Assembly: GCA_025057455.1 (NCBI GenBank)
Contig: JANWWY010000011.1
Span: 1-40,926 of the forward strand
DNA from: Aquificaceae bacterium
GTDB taxonomy: Bacteria > Aquificota > Aquificia > Aquificales > Aquificaceae
DNA: 40,926 bases
Direction of reading: 5' to 3'
Below, one piece after another: positions 32,457-36,441 of the stretch. Position 1 is the stretch's first letter; each line of letters begins with the position of its first letter. The notes under the pieces are model-generated. The model saw only the letters and a list, made by a program, of their open reading frames with translations. It made no database searches and had not been told where the DNA came from. Made by a program: the position numbers and the translations under genes.

Positions 32457-33562
32457 TCTCTAATCCTTCTGGCACCCTCTTTGAGGGTGCCACCATCCTT
32501 TGCAAAGGATATTCTTATGTATTTTTCCGTGTTATTCTTCCCAAAATCTATGCCAGGTGTTACCGCCACTCTTGCCTCTCTTAAAAGCTTCATGGCAAGT
32601 TGGTAGCTGTCTTTAGTATATTTGCTTACATCCAACCATACGTAGAAGGCTCCCTCTGGAAATGCATCTATGTTACCCACCCCTTTCAACTCTTTCAGTA
32701 TTATGTCTCTTCTTTTCTTGTAAATTTCCCTTACCTGAAGGAGGTAAGCGTAGTCAAAAGCTCCTAATGCTGCGTATTGGCTTAATGTAGGTGGGGATAT
32801 GTAGAGATTTTGCAGTATAAGCTCAGCCTTTCTTACCATGTCTTCGTCTGGCAGTATTGCCCAACCTAGTCTAAAGCCTGGCATACAGAAAGCTTTGGAA
32901 AACCCATTTATAACTATAGCCCTTTGACTGAATTCAAGAGCTGTGTGCTCCCTTTTGTCATAGACAAGCCCATGGTATATTTCATCACATATGAGGTAGA
33001 TATTTCTATCCTCGCAAAACTGGGCAAGAGCCTTTAGGTTCTCTTCTTCGTAGAGGCTACCTGTAGGGTTCGAGGGTGAAGAAATATGCACCGCCTTAAG
33101 ATTTTTCAAATCCATAAGGTGCTCGGGCTTTATCTGATATTTAGTACTCTTGTCTACCTCTACGAAGAGCGGTTGGATGTCTAAAATGTGGGCAAAGTTC
33201 TTATAACATGGATAGGATGGGTCGGATAGAGCTAAAACATCCCATGTATCAAGTAGTAGTGCATATACCATAAGAAAAGCGGAGGAAGTTCCCGTGGTGA
33301 CCACAACCCTTGATGGGGAAATATCCACACCGTAGTATTCGTAATAATGCCTTGCTATTTCTTCCCTTAGTTCAATAATACCCAAGCTGGGAGTGTAGGA
33401 ATATTTCTTTTCCCTTATTACTCTTTCCAAAGTCTGCAAAACTCCTGGAGGAGGGTCTATGTCTGGTTCTCCTATTTCCATATGCACCACATCCTCCATT
33501 TGGTAAGCTTCCTTTAGAATATCCATAACGAGAAAAGGGCTCACATTATCAAGCCTTCCCAT
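32441..33562 (-). CDS. Class I/II pyridoxal-phosphate aminotransferase
   Basis: The 373-residue protein is a fold-type I aminotransferase. It shows HMEIGEPDIDPP, SYTPSLGIIELREEIARHY, the TTGTSSAF cofactor loop, HISSPSNPTGSLY (Asn), ICDEIYHGLVYD (Asp and Tyr), the Schiff-base lysine in INGFSKAFCMPGFRLGW and the substrate Arg in YIRISFAKDGG. It resembles aspartate/alanine/aromatic aminotransferases of the I-gamma type, but the substrate cannot be told from sequence alone. It starts 14 bases inside the FlgJ-like gene and has only a distant GGAG. It probably shares that gene's promoter. Confidence 0.92.
   Translation of the reverse strand: MGRLDNVSPFLVMDILKEAYQMEDVVHMEIGEPDIDPPPGVLQTLERVIREKKYSYTPSLGIIELREEIARHYYEYYGVDISPSRVVVTTGTSSAFLMVYALLLDTWDVLALSDPSYPCYKNFAHILDIQPLFVEVDKSTKYQIKPEHLMDLKNLKAVHISSPSNPTGSLYEEENLKALAQFCEDRNIYLICDEIYHGLVYDKREHTALEFSQRAIVINGFSKAFCMPGFRLGWAILPDEDMVRKAELILQNLYISPPTLSQYAALGAFDYAYLLQVREIYKKRRDIILKELKGVGNIDAFPEGAFYVWLDVSKYTKDSYQLAMKLLREARVAVTPGIDFGKNNTEKYIRISFAKDGGTLKEGARRIRDYLTR
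32471..32510. terminator. Two hairpins in the convergent 3' region
   Basis: GGCACCCTC and GAGGGTGCC (32471-32479, 32483-32491) form a perfect 9-base stem with a TTT loop. Three bases further is the 16-base palindrome ATCCTTTGCAAAGGAT (32495-32510). Both lie in the last codons of the aminotransferase and just after the OmpA-domain gene. No T-run follows on either strand, so termination is uncertain. Confidence 0.4.
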
Positions 33563-33824
33563 CTTTTATATGCTCCAGAATAAATTTTGCTATGCCAATA
33601 CCGCCCGCTTGGGCTAACTTTTTGCTTAGATTTTCCAGAAAGCTATCGTAGTATAACCTTGTATCGAAAGATTTATCCTCCAGCATGGGCTTAAAAGCTT
33701 CCTTTAGCAATTCCTTTAGCAGGATGGCTTCAAACTCAACTGCGGTACTTTTTTTGTCCTTCTTTATAAGCTCTTGATAGTTTAAGCTATGAACCGCGTA
33801 TGTGAGTTTTTTGCTTATATCCAT
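33549..33824 (-). CDS. FlgJ-like flagellar rod-binding protein without muramidase domain
   Basis: The 91-residue product matches the rod-binding domain of FlgJ: AVEFEAILLKELLKEAFKPM, then YYDSFLENLSKKLAQAGGIGIAKFILEHI. FlgJ caps the growing flagellar rod. In enterobacteria a C-terminal muramidase domain is fused to it; here the protein stops after the rod-binding part, as in several other lineages, so another enzyme must open the wall. It is the only flagellar gene in the window and implies that the organism is motile or had motile ancestors. It is separated by 16 bases from the divergent Omp85 gene and has a TATAAT 8 bases before its ATG. Confidence 0.82.
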   Translation of the reverse strand: MDISKKLTYAVHSLNYQELIKKDKKSTAVEFEAILLKELLKEAFKPMLEDKSFDTRLYYDSFLENLSKKLAQAGGIGIAKFILEHIKDGKA

Positions 33825-33828
33825 TGGT

Positions 33829-33838
33829 TAAAATTATA
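33829..33838. promoter_or_regulatory. Overlapping divergent -10 boxes (flgJ-like and Omp85 genes)
   Basis: On the plus strand TAAAAT (33829-33834) ends 6 bases before the Omp85 ATG at 33841. On the minus strand TATAAT (33833-33838) ends 8 bases before the FlgJ-like ATG at 33824. The two hexamers share two base pairs, in a gap of only 16 bases, and neither gene has a Shine-Dalgarno. Confidence 0.5.
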
Positions 33839-33840
33839 CT

Positions 33841-36441
33841 ATGCTACTGATATTGCTTCTCTTTTTCCCCTTAACCGTTCTCTCGCAGGTTTTCATAATT
33901 TCTAACTATCCCTTGAGGAAGAACAACTTGGAAAAAGTAATAAACATGGATAACTACAAAGAAATAGTTCAGGTAATAAGAAGCGTTGAAGATGTGAAGG
34001 ATGTTTATTTGATGGAGGAAGAGGACAGAATCTACATATACATAGAACGATACCCTATAGTTAGGAAAGTACACATAAGGGGAAATAGAACAGTGCAGAA
34101 AGAAGAAATCCTATCATACCTTGGGCTTTATGATGGTATGCCGTTGCGTGCTCCTGAATTTGACGAAAAGGATGTGGAAGAGAGAATAAAGAGGCTATAC
34201 AGAGATAGGGGCTTTTTGGATGTCTCTGTGGGTGTAACCATAAAAAGGGATGAAGAAGGTTATTTGGAATTGTTTATCGGAGTGGATGAGGGAAGTGTGT
34301 ACTTTACCGAAGGGGGCGTATACAAGGGCTCAAGCTATGAGCCTTCCCTTCTTGATTTGAAGATAGGACTTGTAAGAGGAAGAGTCTACAAGGAGACCTT
34401 TTTTAGCGAAGGCGTCTTCCCTTTGCAGGATTTCTACAGAAAGGAAGGTTTCTGGGACAGTTTTGTTTATTACGAAGGCGTAGAAAAACTCAAGTTAGAA
34501 AAACCCTTTTTTAGAGTGCTTCTGCCCCACGATAGGACCTTAGGTAAAAGGCCGCTTGGCATACTGGGGTCTTTCTTTGAAGGTTTGTCAAACCTATTTA
34601 ATCATCCACTGTATACCATGAAAGCCTTTGCTGGCAAGGGCTACGTTGCCAGGCCAATTTTTCAGATTATAGAGGGTAATAGGTATCAAGTTTCTTGGGA
34701 GGGTGCAGAATTCTTTAAGCCTTACGAGCTAATAAGATTTACCGGACTTGAGGAAAAGGGTGTAGACCCCTTTTCTCTGGAGGAAGCCAAGCAGGAGCTT
34801 GTTAGAGCCTACCACAGGAAGGGGTTTTTTGATGTGCAAGTTGAATACAAGGTGGAAGACTATAGAATAAACTTTACAATACAGGAGGGGAAAAGGTACA
34901 CAATTGTTGGAAACGTATTGGAAGGGGAGTTTTATGACGAGGATAAGCTGGAAGCCTTACTGGATAAAAGGCTGAAGGAGCTTTCTGCAGAGGGTTATAC
35001 CTTGGCTGAGGGCAAGTTGGAAAAGGAAGTTATGAAGAATCTTAGGGAAGTAAAGGTAAAGCTGGAGATAGAGCCTGGAAAAAGGCAAATACTGAAGGAT
35101 TTTGTATACAAAGGGGATAACAGAGTAATAAAGGGTATATTTAAAAAGCATAGGGAAAGACTACCCACCATATTCAACACAGACCTCGTAGAGAGCCTTA
35201 ACTTGGATTTGCAAAGATACTTTCTAAGGGCTGGTTTCATGGAAGGTGATTTTGATATACAGGTAGATATTCAAGAAGACGATAAGAACCTTTACTACAC
35301 ATACATCTATACTGTAAAAGAAGGACCCATATACCAATTAGGTGAGACCATCTATTACGGATATGAAAGGACAAAACTACGTGAACTTTCCTACATGACA
35401 GAAAAGGCTAAAAACTACTCAGAAACCATCAACGATAAAACTCTCCACAACATGCTAAACAGTGGTATATTCACCGGTGTTTCCATAGATACTTTTTTGG
35501 ATAAAGAAAGAAAGTTAGTACACCGTTTGGTGCAAATCTCTGAAGACCAGCGAGGTATTTTTGACCTTTCTCTGGGATACAACACAGAAGAGCTCCTTTC
35601 TTTAGAAACCTTCTTAGGCTTAAAGAATCTGTTTGGTGTTGGTGTTACATCTGGGTTTAGATACAGAAAAACGGGAAAGAGGGAACTATACGATTTGAGC
35701 TTACAAGATGGCTTCCTTTTTTCCAGCAGGTATTGGTTCAAGTCTAACCTCTTTAGAAGCTACGAAGAGCACAAGAGTTACGAGTTGAACTCTAACGGAT
35801 ATAACCTTCAGTTAGGTTATAGGATAACAACTAACGCTTCAGTGGGACCCGTCATAAGTCTTCTGAAAAACAGGGTTGACGGGCAAAATTACCACCTGAG
35901 GAAATATGGACTCTTCTACATAAGAGAGTTTAAGGATGACCCCTTTTCTCCACAGAGATTACACTACAACAGCATAAACCTTAGCCTAGCTGAGGGTGAT
36001 GCCAGATATACAAAGTTTGACCTGTCCACTTTCTATGTAATACCTGTTAAGAGCGGTTTTAGGCTGAGCTTTAAGGTAGCTGGCGGAGCTGTGTGGGGTG
36101 ATGCACCCATCTTTGAAAAATTTTTCTTGGGAGGTATTAGAGACCTAAGAGGCTACTCCTTTGAAGAAATAGGTCAACCAAAGGGTGGAAAGTACTATGG
36201 CTTTGGTAGATTAGAATTTATATTTTCCCTTAAAGGTCCTTTTATAGGTGTTCTCTTTGGCGATGCTGGTGCGGTGGGTGACAAGTGGAGCTATCTTGCC
36301 AAAAATATAAAGGGAGATTTAGGAATGGGGTTTGGCGTAAATACGCCTTTGGGTCCTGTAAGATTGGACTTAGCATTCCCCATAGAGAGAAAATGGTTGG
36401 ATAGGCATAGAATATACCTATCGGTAGGTTATTATTACTGA
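33841..36441 (+). CDS. Omp85-family outer membrane protein (BamA/TamA type)
   Basis: Omp85 proteins insert beta-barrel proteins into the outer membrane. The 866-residue product has a signal peptide (about 1-15), a long periplasmic region of POTRA-like repeats and a C-terminal 16-strand barrel (about 530-866). POTRA signs are VRKVHIRGNRTVQKEEILSY, RIKRLYRDRGFLDVSVGV, AYHRKGFFDVQVEY and FVYKGDNRV. The barrel contains FFLGGIRDLRGYSFEEIG, with the conserved RGY/F turn, and ends in alternating aromatic residues (LSVGYYY). No lpxD, skp or bamD gene is near. Both BamA and TamA are possible. The start at 33841 lies 16 bases from the divergent FlgJ-like gene. Confidence 0.9.
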   Translation: MLLILLLFFPLTVLSQVFIISNYPLRKNNLEKVINMDNYKEIVQVIRSVEDVKDVYLMEEEDRIYIYIERYPIVRKVHIRGNRTVQKEEILSYLGLYDGMPLRAPEFDEKDVEERIKRLYRDRGFLDVSVGVTIKRDEEGYLELFIGVDEGSVYFTEGGVYKGSSYEPSLLDLKIGLVRGRVYKETFFSEGVFPLQDFYRKEGFWDSFVYYEGVEKLKLEKPFFRVLLPHDRTLGKRPLGILGSFFEGLSNLFNHPLYTMKAFAGKGYVARPIFQIIEGNRYQVSWEGAEFFKPYELIRFTGLEEKGVDPFSLEEAKQELVRAYHRKGFFDVQVEYKVEDYRINFTIQEGKRYTIVGNVLEGEFYDEDKLEALLDKRLKELSAEGYTLAEGKLEKEVMKNLREVKVKLEIEPGKRQILKDFVYKGDNRVIKGIFKKHRERLPTIFNTDLVESLNLDLQRYFLRAGFMEGDFDIQVDIQEDDKNLYYTYIYTVKEGPIYQLGETIYYGYERTKLRELSYMTEKAKNYSETINDKTLHNMLNSGIFTGVSIDTFLDKERKLVHRLVQISEDQRGIFDLSLGYNTEELLSLETFLGLKNLFGVGVTSGFRYRKTGKRELYDLSLQDGFLFSSRYWFKSNLFRSYEEHKSYELNSNGYNLQLGYRITTNASVGPVISLLKNRVDGQNYHLRKYGLFYIREFKDDPFSPQRLHYNSINLSLAEGDARYTKFDLSTFYVIPVKSGFRLSFKVAGGAVWGDAPIFEKFFLGGIRDLRGYSFEEIGQPKGGKYYGFGRLEFIFSLKGPFIGVLFGDAGAVGDKWSYLAKNIKGDLGMGFGVNTPLGPVRLDLAFPIERKWLDRHRIYLSVGYYY

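Follow-up and report, generated by a model that had tools for sequence, protein, structure and literature searches.

A 16-bp gap between divergent flgJ-like and Omp85-family genes as a predicted minimal two-way promoter in Aquificaceae

Two divergent genes separated by only 16 bp raise a double question: can so short a gap hold a promoter for each of them, and does such an arrangement mean that the two genes are regulated together? The case studied here lies in the genome of a heat-loving Aquificaceae bacterium (phylum Aquificota), where a gene encoding a flgJ-like rod-binding protein faces away from a gene encoding an Omp85-family protein. The initial annotation of this locus had proposed a bidirectional promoter coupling a flagellar rod factor to outer membrane assembly in an either/or way. 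The window analysed (40,926 nucleotides) is the whole of contig C2 in an assembly of 1.42 Mb, and the genome-wide analysis was carried out on 1.416 Mb, i.e. nearly all of the genome. Genes were called with a simple home-made caller, based on a coding-potential model that ignores promoters, and the start codons used below rest on these calls.

Anatomy of the gap and identity of its neighbours

The following features are used throughout the text.

33549..33824, minus strand: 91-aa rod-binding protein, flgJ-like (Pfam PF10135 at 23.5 bits, slightly below the cut-off of 25.1)
33825..33840, no strand: predicted two-way promoter, corresponding to the entire intergenic region; its ten-base core is invariant in nine genomes
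33829..33834, plus strand: -10 box TAAAAT of the Omp85 gene, starting at -12 from the ATG (genome-wide TANAAT peak at -12 to -15)
33833..33838, minus strand: -10 box TATAAT of the flgJ-like gene; it decays in a relative without flgJ and on the omp85 side of a split pair
33841..36441, plus strand: 866-aa accessory member of the Omp85 family, with POTRA domains and a barrel (PF01103, PF07244)

The flgJ-like gene is the only one of its kind in the genome, which also has five Flg_bbr_C matches and flagellar rod/hook genes; these genes and flgJ are missing together in one relative (G049). The Omp85 protein of the window scores 171 bits against the BamA equivalog TIGR03303, i.e. below the cut-off of 297, while a protein encoded on another contig (C44), whose gene has a Shine-Dalgarno-like sequence, reaches 491 bits and is the canonical BamA. 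The product of the window's gene is therefore not the canonical BamA, and it is best called a second, accessory member of the family. This type of Omp85 is present in most of the genus and missing from two near-complete relatives there.

The 16 bp between the two genes (TGGTTAAAATTATACT) are the whole intergenic region: both ATGs are flush with its edges, the minus-strand gene running from 33824 and the plus-strand gene from 33841. The plus-strand TAAAAT and the minus-strand TATAAT overlap by 2 bp (33833-33834), as the initial annotation had stated. A leaderless gene is expected to have TANNNT about 12 bp ahead of its start codon, and the signal is found at -12 for omp85 and at -14 for flgJ. 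With +1 placed 7 bp past the last T of the -10 box, the predicted plus-strand start is A33841 (leader of 0 nt) and the predicted minus-strand start is 33826 (leader of 2 nt). The leaderless spacing proposed on both sides is thus borne out, as far as box spacing can tell, with predicted leaders of 0-2 nt. On the minus side, the spacing exceeds the ideal by 2 nt here and by 1 nt in most relatives. Upstream of the ATG, three in-frame codons are open for the plus-strand gene and one for the minus-strand gene, the stop of the former being the TAA inside its own TAAAAT. Stop codons therefore close both frames just upstream and bar starts further out for either gene. No Shine-Dalgarno sequence is present in the 16-bp gap and no clear -35 element was found at the locus. 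A proper TG at -15/-14 (extended -10) is absent from both boxes of the window's own copy; it is seen at the gap copies of several relatives.

Taken singly, a TAWAAT placed 12 bp ahead of an ATG has no significance in the 41 kb window (2 found vs. 0.79 expected). The combined motif TANAATTATANNATG was found once and never in 100 shuffles, so the interlock ahead of an ATG exceeds chance. Moreover, TAAAATTATANNATG occurs in five copies in the assembly (vs. 0 for the reversed control), one of them on an apparently contaminant contig.

Short divergent gaps across the genome

Throughout the genome, TANAAT shows a sharp peak at -12 to -15 from ATG starts (62, 59, 65, and 34 genes at these positions, vs. 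3-12 per position further upstream). This peak is observed both in-frame and out-of-frame; the TAA stop contained in TAAAAT is therefore not its cause. Gaps of 0-13 bp are absent from the 191 divergent gene pairs, 26 of which are separated by 14-20 bp; co-directional pairs with a gap of 0-13 bp number 258. The 52 genes bordering these 26 short divergent gaps have a -10 box at -12 to -15 in 98% of cases and a Shine-Dalgarno sequence in 4%, the corresponding values for genes at divergent gaps of more than 100 bp being 39% and 34%. Boxes on both strands were found at 25 of the 26 short-gap pairs, compared with a mean of 1.5 and a maximum of 6 in gap shuffles; the single exception (C63:23319) has one box only. 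The pairs concerned include MreB//RelA-SpoT, RdgB//GatB, DnaG//HemD, LptF/G//GcvT, cytochrome c assembly protein//AcpS, and amino acid kinase//DAHP synthase, and no function is common to them. Since about 25 unrelated housekeeping pairs share the same design, the short-gap architecture is a packing style and not a pairwise regulatory device. No clear -35 signal was detected genome-wide at any spacing, and TG at -15/-14 is enriched (22% vs. about 5%).

The geometry of the boxes is itself characteristic. In the short gaps, they are usually 3 or 4 bases apart. Offset 4, i.e. the 2-bp interlock of the window, is present at 42% of the short divergent promoters vs. 8-12% of the co-directional ones (p = 7e-7), and offset 1, the symmetric -10 common in E. 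coli, is found at 35-50% of promoters whatever the context. When offset 4 is combined with two leaderless starts, the resulting gap is 14 bp, the smallest seen. In the window, the predicted divergent starts would be 15 bp apart at ideal spacing, or 17 bp if both lie at the ATG. The gap thus departs from the commonest arrangement of 18 bp, which is a preference and not a requirement. The 18-bp symmetric pattern was also considered as a marker of the phylum, and dropped because it was too noisy relative to its control. As a separate observation, the 22-bp gap at C20:14666 (AGCTTATAATTATAAGCCTGAA) has a -10 core that is a perfect palindrome (TTATAATTATAA); this core lies between divergent genes, closer to one of them.

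Conservation, natural losses and exchange of partners

The initial annotation had named a poorly conserved gap, in relatives that keep the gene pair, as the observation that would count against it. The gap withstands this check: in the nine genomes keeping the flgJ//omp85 pair, the ten-base core TAAAATTATA is invariant at 10 of 10 positions. It is the longest invariant run in an alignment of 954 columns, the next longest being 5, and its flanking regions are 37% and 50% identical. Other short gaps are conserved in a like manner. At rdgB//gatB, 13 genomes were examined; the gap is 15 bp in 11 of them, including one with a different divergent partner, and some gatB copies carry the core variant TACAATTATA; at mreB//relA, the core is TAATATTATA in most genomes.

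The interlocked motif between facing ATGs was found mostly 11-20 times in the window's genus (reversed control: 0-4), with only 2-3 occurrences in two members of that genus (G049 and G055), and 8-16 times in genus g7 (reversed control: 0-3). Other genera of the family exceed the reversed control weakly, and in other families of the phylum the motif is not above it. In sampled parts of two further genomes, short gaps were present at only 1 of 31 divergent pairs (G026, 240 kb), fewer than in the window's genome, and both boxes at only 2 of 5 pairs with gaps of 13-20 bp (G030, 400 kb). In G049, the interlocked arrangement is lost at all three loci examined (L010, L233, L247) and such motifs are very few overall.

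We then considered the relatives in which the pair has been broken. In G049, which lacks flgJ and the rod/hook family searched, omp85 retains TAAAAT and the minus box has decayed. In G053, which lacks the window-type omp85, flgJ retains TATAAT and the plus box is broken by a 1-nt insertion. In G051, an insertion splits the pair: both boxes persist at the flgJ copy, and the omp85 copy keeps the plus box and has lost the minus one (TATAAT to CATAAT). In these three cases, which are the only ones and each a single event, a box decays when its own gene is gone; each box therefore behaves like a promoter for the gene on its side. At the G051 locus (L170, around 1417-1500), the core promoter is apparently duplicated where the pair is split by about 70 bp.

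Partners can also be exchanged. On contig C28 of the window's assembly, omp85 lies opposite rpiB with the same core between them, and in genus g7 an apparent aminotransferase start lies opposite omp85. C28 is apparently a contamination from a related species. On this contig (L033, 1-13978), 12 of 15 genes have copies with 65-89% identity on other contigs.

Explanations of the architecture

The explanation that we regard as probable takes the gap to be a bidirectional core promoter of minimal size, one of about 25 in this genome, reflecting genome compaction. From the positions of the boxes, we infer that RNA polymerase carrying the housekeeping sigma factor would bind TAAAATTATA either way round. 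The plus-strand box TAAAAT would direct it to a start at or beside the first base of the Omp85 ATG, and the minus-strand box TATAAT to one lying 0-2 nt from the flgJ ATG. The two mRNAs would then be leaderless or nearly so and would be translated without a Shine-Dalgarno sequence. The -35 element would be dispensable, and the extended -10 (TG) would aid many such promoters. For two leaderless genes, a pair of interlocked -10 boxes suffices as spacer DNA, which would set a floor of about 14 bp. The best reading of the class is therefore a genome-wide, Aquificaceae-typical set of bidirectional promoters that are minimal and leaderless on both sides, and their geometry would set the minimum spacing of divergent genes.

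RNA polymerase can occupy a shared core in only one orientation at a time, and some steric exclusion must exist. An either/or switch, in which occupancy one way blocks the other and the pair is selected for coupling flgJ and omp85, would agree with the common base pairs, which exclude simultaneous occupancy, with the retention of pair and core in nine genomes, and with the competition that can appear in E. coli once one direction is strongly activated (PMC12825309). It does not sit well with the identical design of about 25 unrelated housekeeping pairs, nor with an accessory omp85 that uses the same core opposite rpiB (on the contaminant contig) or an apparent aminotransferase (in g7). Furthermore, five bidirectional promoters of E. 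coli show no competition at basal activity and compete only under such strong activation (PMC12825309); for this reason, we consider such a switch quite unlikely. Of what the initial annotation proposed, the shared two-way core, its conservation and the predicted leader spacing of 0-2 nt stand. That the architecture exists in order to couple flagellum and outer membrane is rejected on the strength of the generality of the design, the exchange or loss of partners and the accessory nature of this Omp85, and the absence of basal competition in E. coli also speaks against it. A broader version, in which competition at the interlocked leaderless promoters of these ~25 loci is a selected regulatory layer linking or buffering unrelated divergent genes, is unlikely.

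It could also be that one box only is a real promoter, the opposite one arising by chance from the symmetry of -10 elements, with the other gene driven from inside its neighbour. Symmetric -10 boxes are indeed frequent in any context, but they are of the offset 1 type, whereas the offset 4 interlock is specific to divergent pairs, and each box is kept with its own gene and decays without it. In addition, the sole sigma-70 promoter-like site in 33600-34100 falls within omp85 on the plus strand and is no better than expected by chance. This explanation is accordingly very improbable. The near-palindromic form of TAAAATTATA and its invariance in relatives retaining the pair would also suit the operator of a regulator. 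However, the core keeps a fixed distance to the start codons, fits the genome's -10 consensus, is placed between unrelated housekeeping genes, and differs by locus where a -10 tolerates change, as in the mreB//relA core and some gatB copies. An operator instead of a promoter is thus rejected, its probability being negligible in our estimation.

Each half of this architecture has precedents. Bidirectional promoters with symmetric -10 elements were described by Warman, Grainger and colleagues (PMC10268837, PMC12825309), and the promoters considered here resemble them in having opposed -10 boxes with common base pairs and no required -35. The start sites predicted in the window, 15-17 bp apart, would also fall within the 7-25 bp that define bidirectional promoters in these studies. 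In contrast to those promoters, the prevailing offset here is 3-4 (starts about 15-16 bp apart at ideal spacing) instead of the commonest 18 bp, or 10 or 23 bp; each direction has a coding product that is apparently leaderless; and the promoter takes up the intergenic region entirely. The text of PMC12825309 does not contain the term "leaderless". Zheng 2011 (PMC3160421) described leaderless genes whose -10 box, TANNNT, lies about 12 bp ahead of the start codon; this survey gives 20.7-32.4% of leaderless genes in the two Aquificae genomes where it detects them and shows Aquifex aeolicus as an example. The same signal is found here at the same distance, but that work deals with single genes, unlike the facing, interlocked pairs of the present study. 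In Deinococcus-Thermus, -10 regions are adjacent to ORFs (PMC12340547), and the -10 directly against the ORF with a leaderless mRNA, which is predicted here from sequence, is similar; that work concerns another phylum, and the words divergent, bidirectional, and intergenic are absent from its text. We found no paper joining bidirectional promoters and leaderless genes in this way in the open-access literature. Thus, bidirectional promoters and leaderless genes, including those of Aquificae, are each known, and the predicted doubly leaderless combination appears to be a new form of both.

If the starts map as predicted, this family of thermophiles would provide many two-way promoters of natural origin and nearly minimal size, about 25 of them in this genome, with a coding, leaderless product in each direction. 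Three questions would then become directly open to experiment: the least DNA with which a bacterial promoter can work, the occurrence of competition between opposed polymerases at native promoters, and the factors that determine the minimum spacing of divergent genes. For the bacterium itself, about 25 pairs packed in this manner point to economy in gene packing and not to a particular connection between a flagellar and an outer membrane gene.
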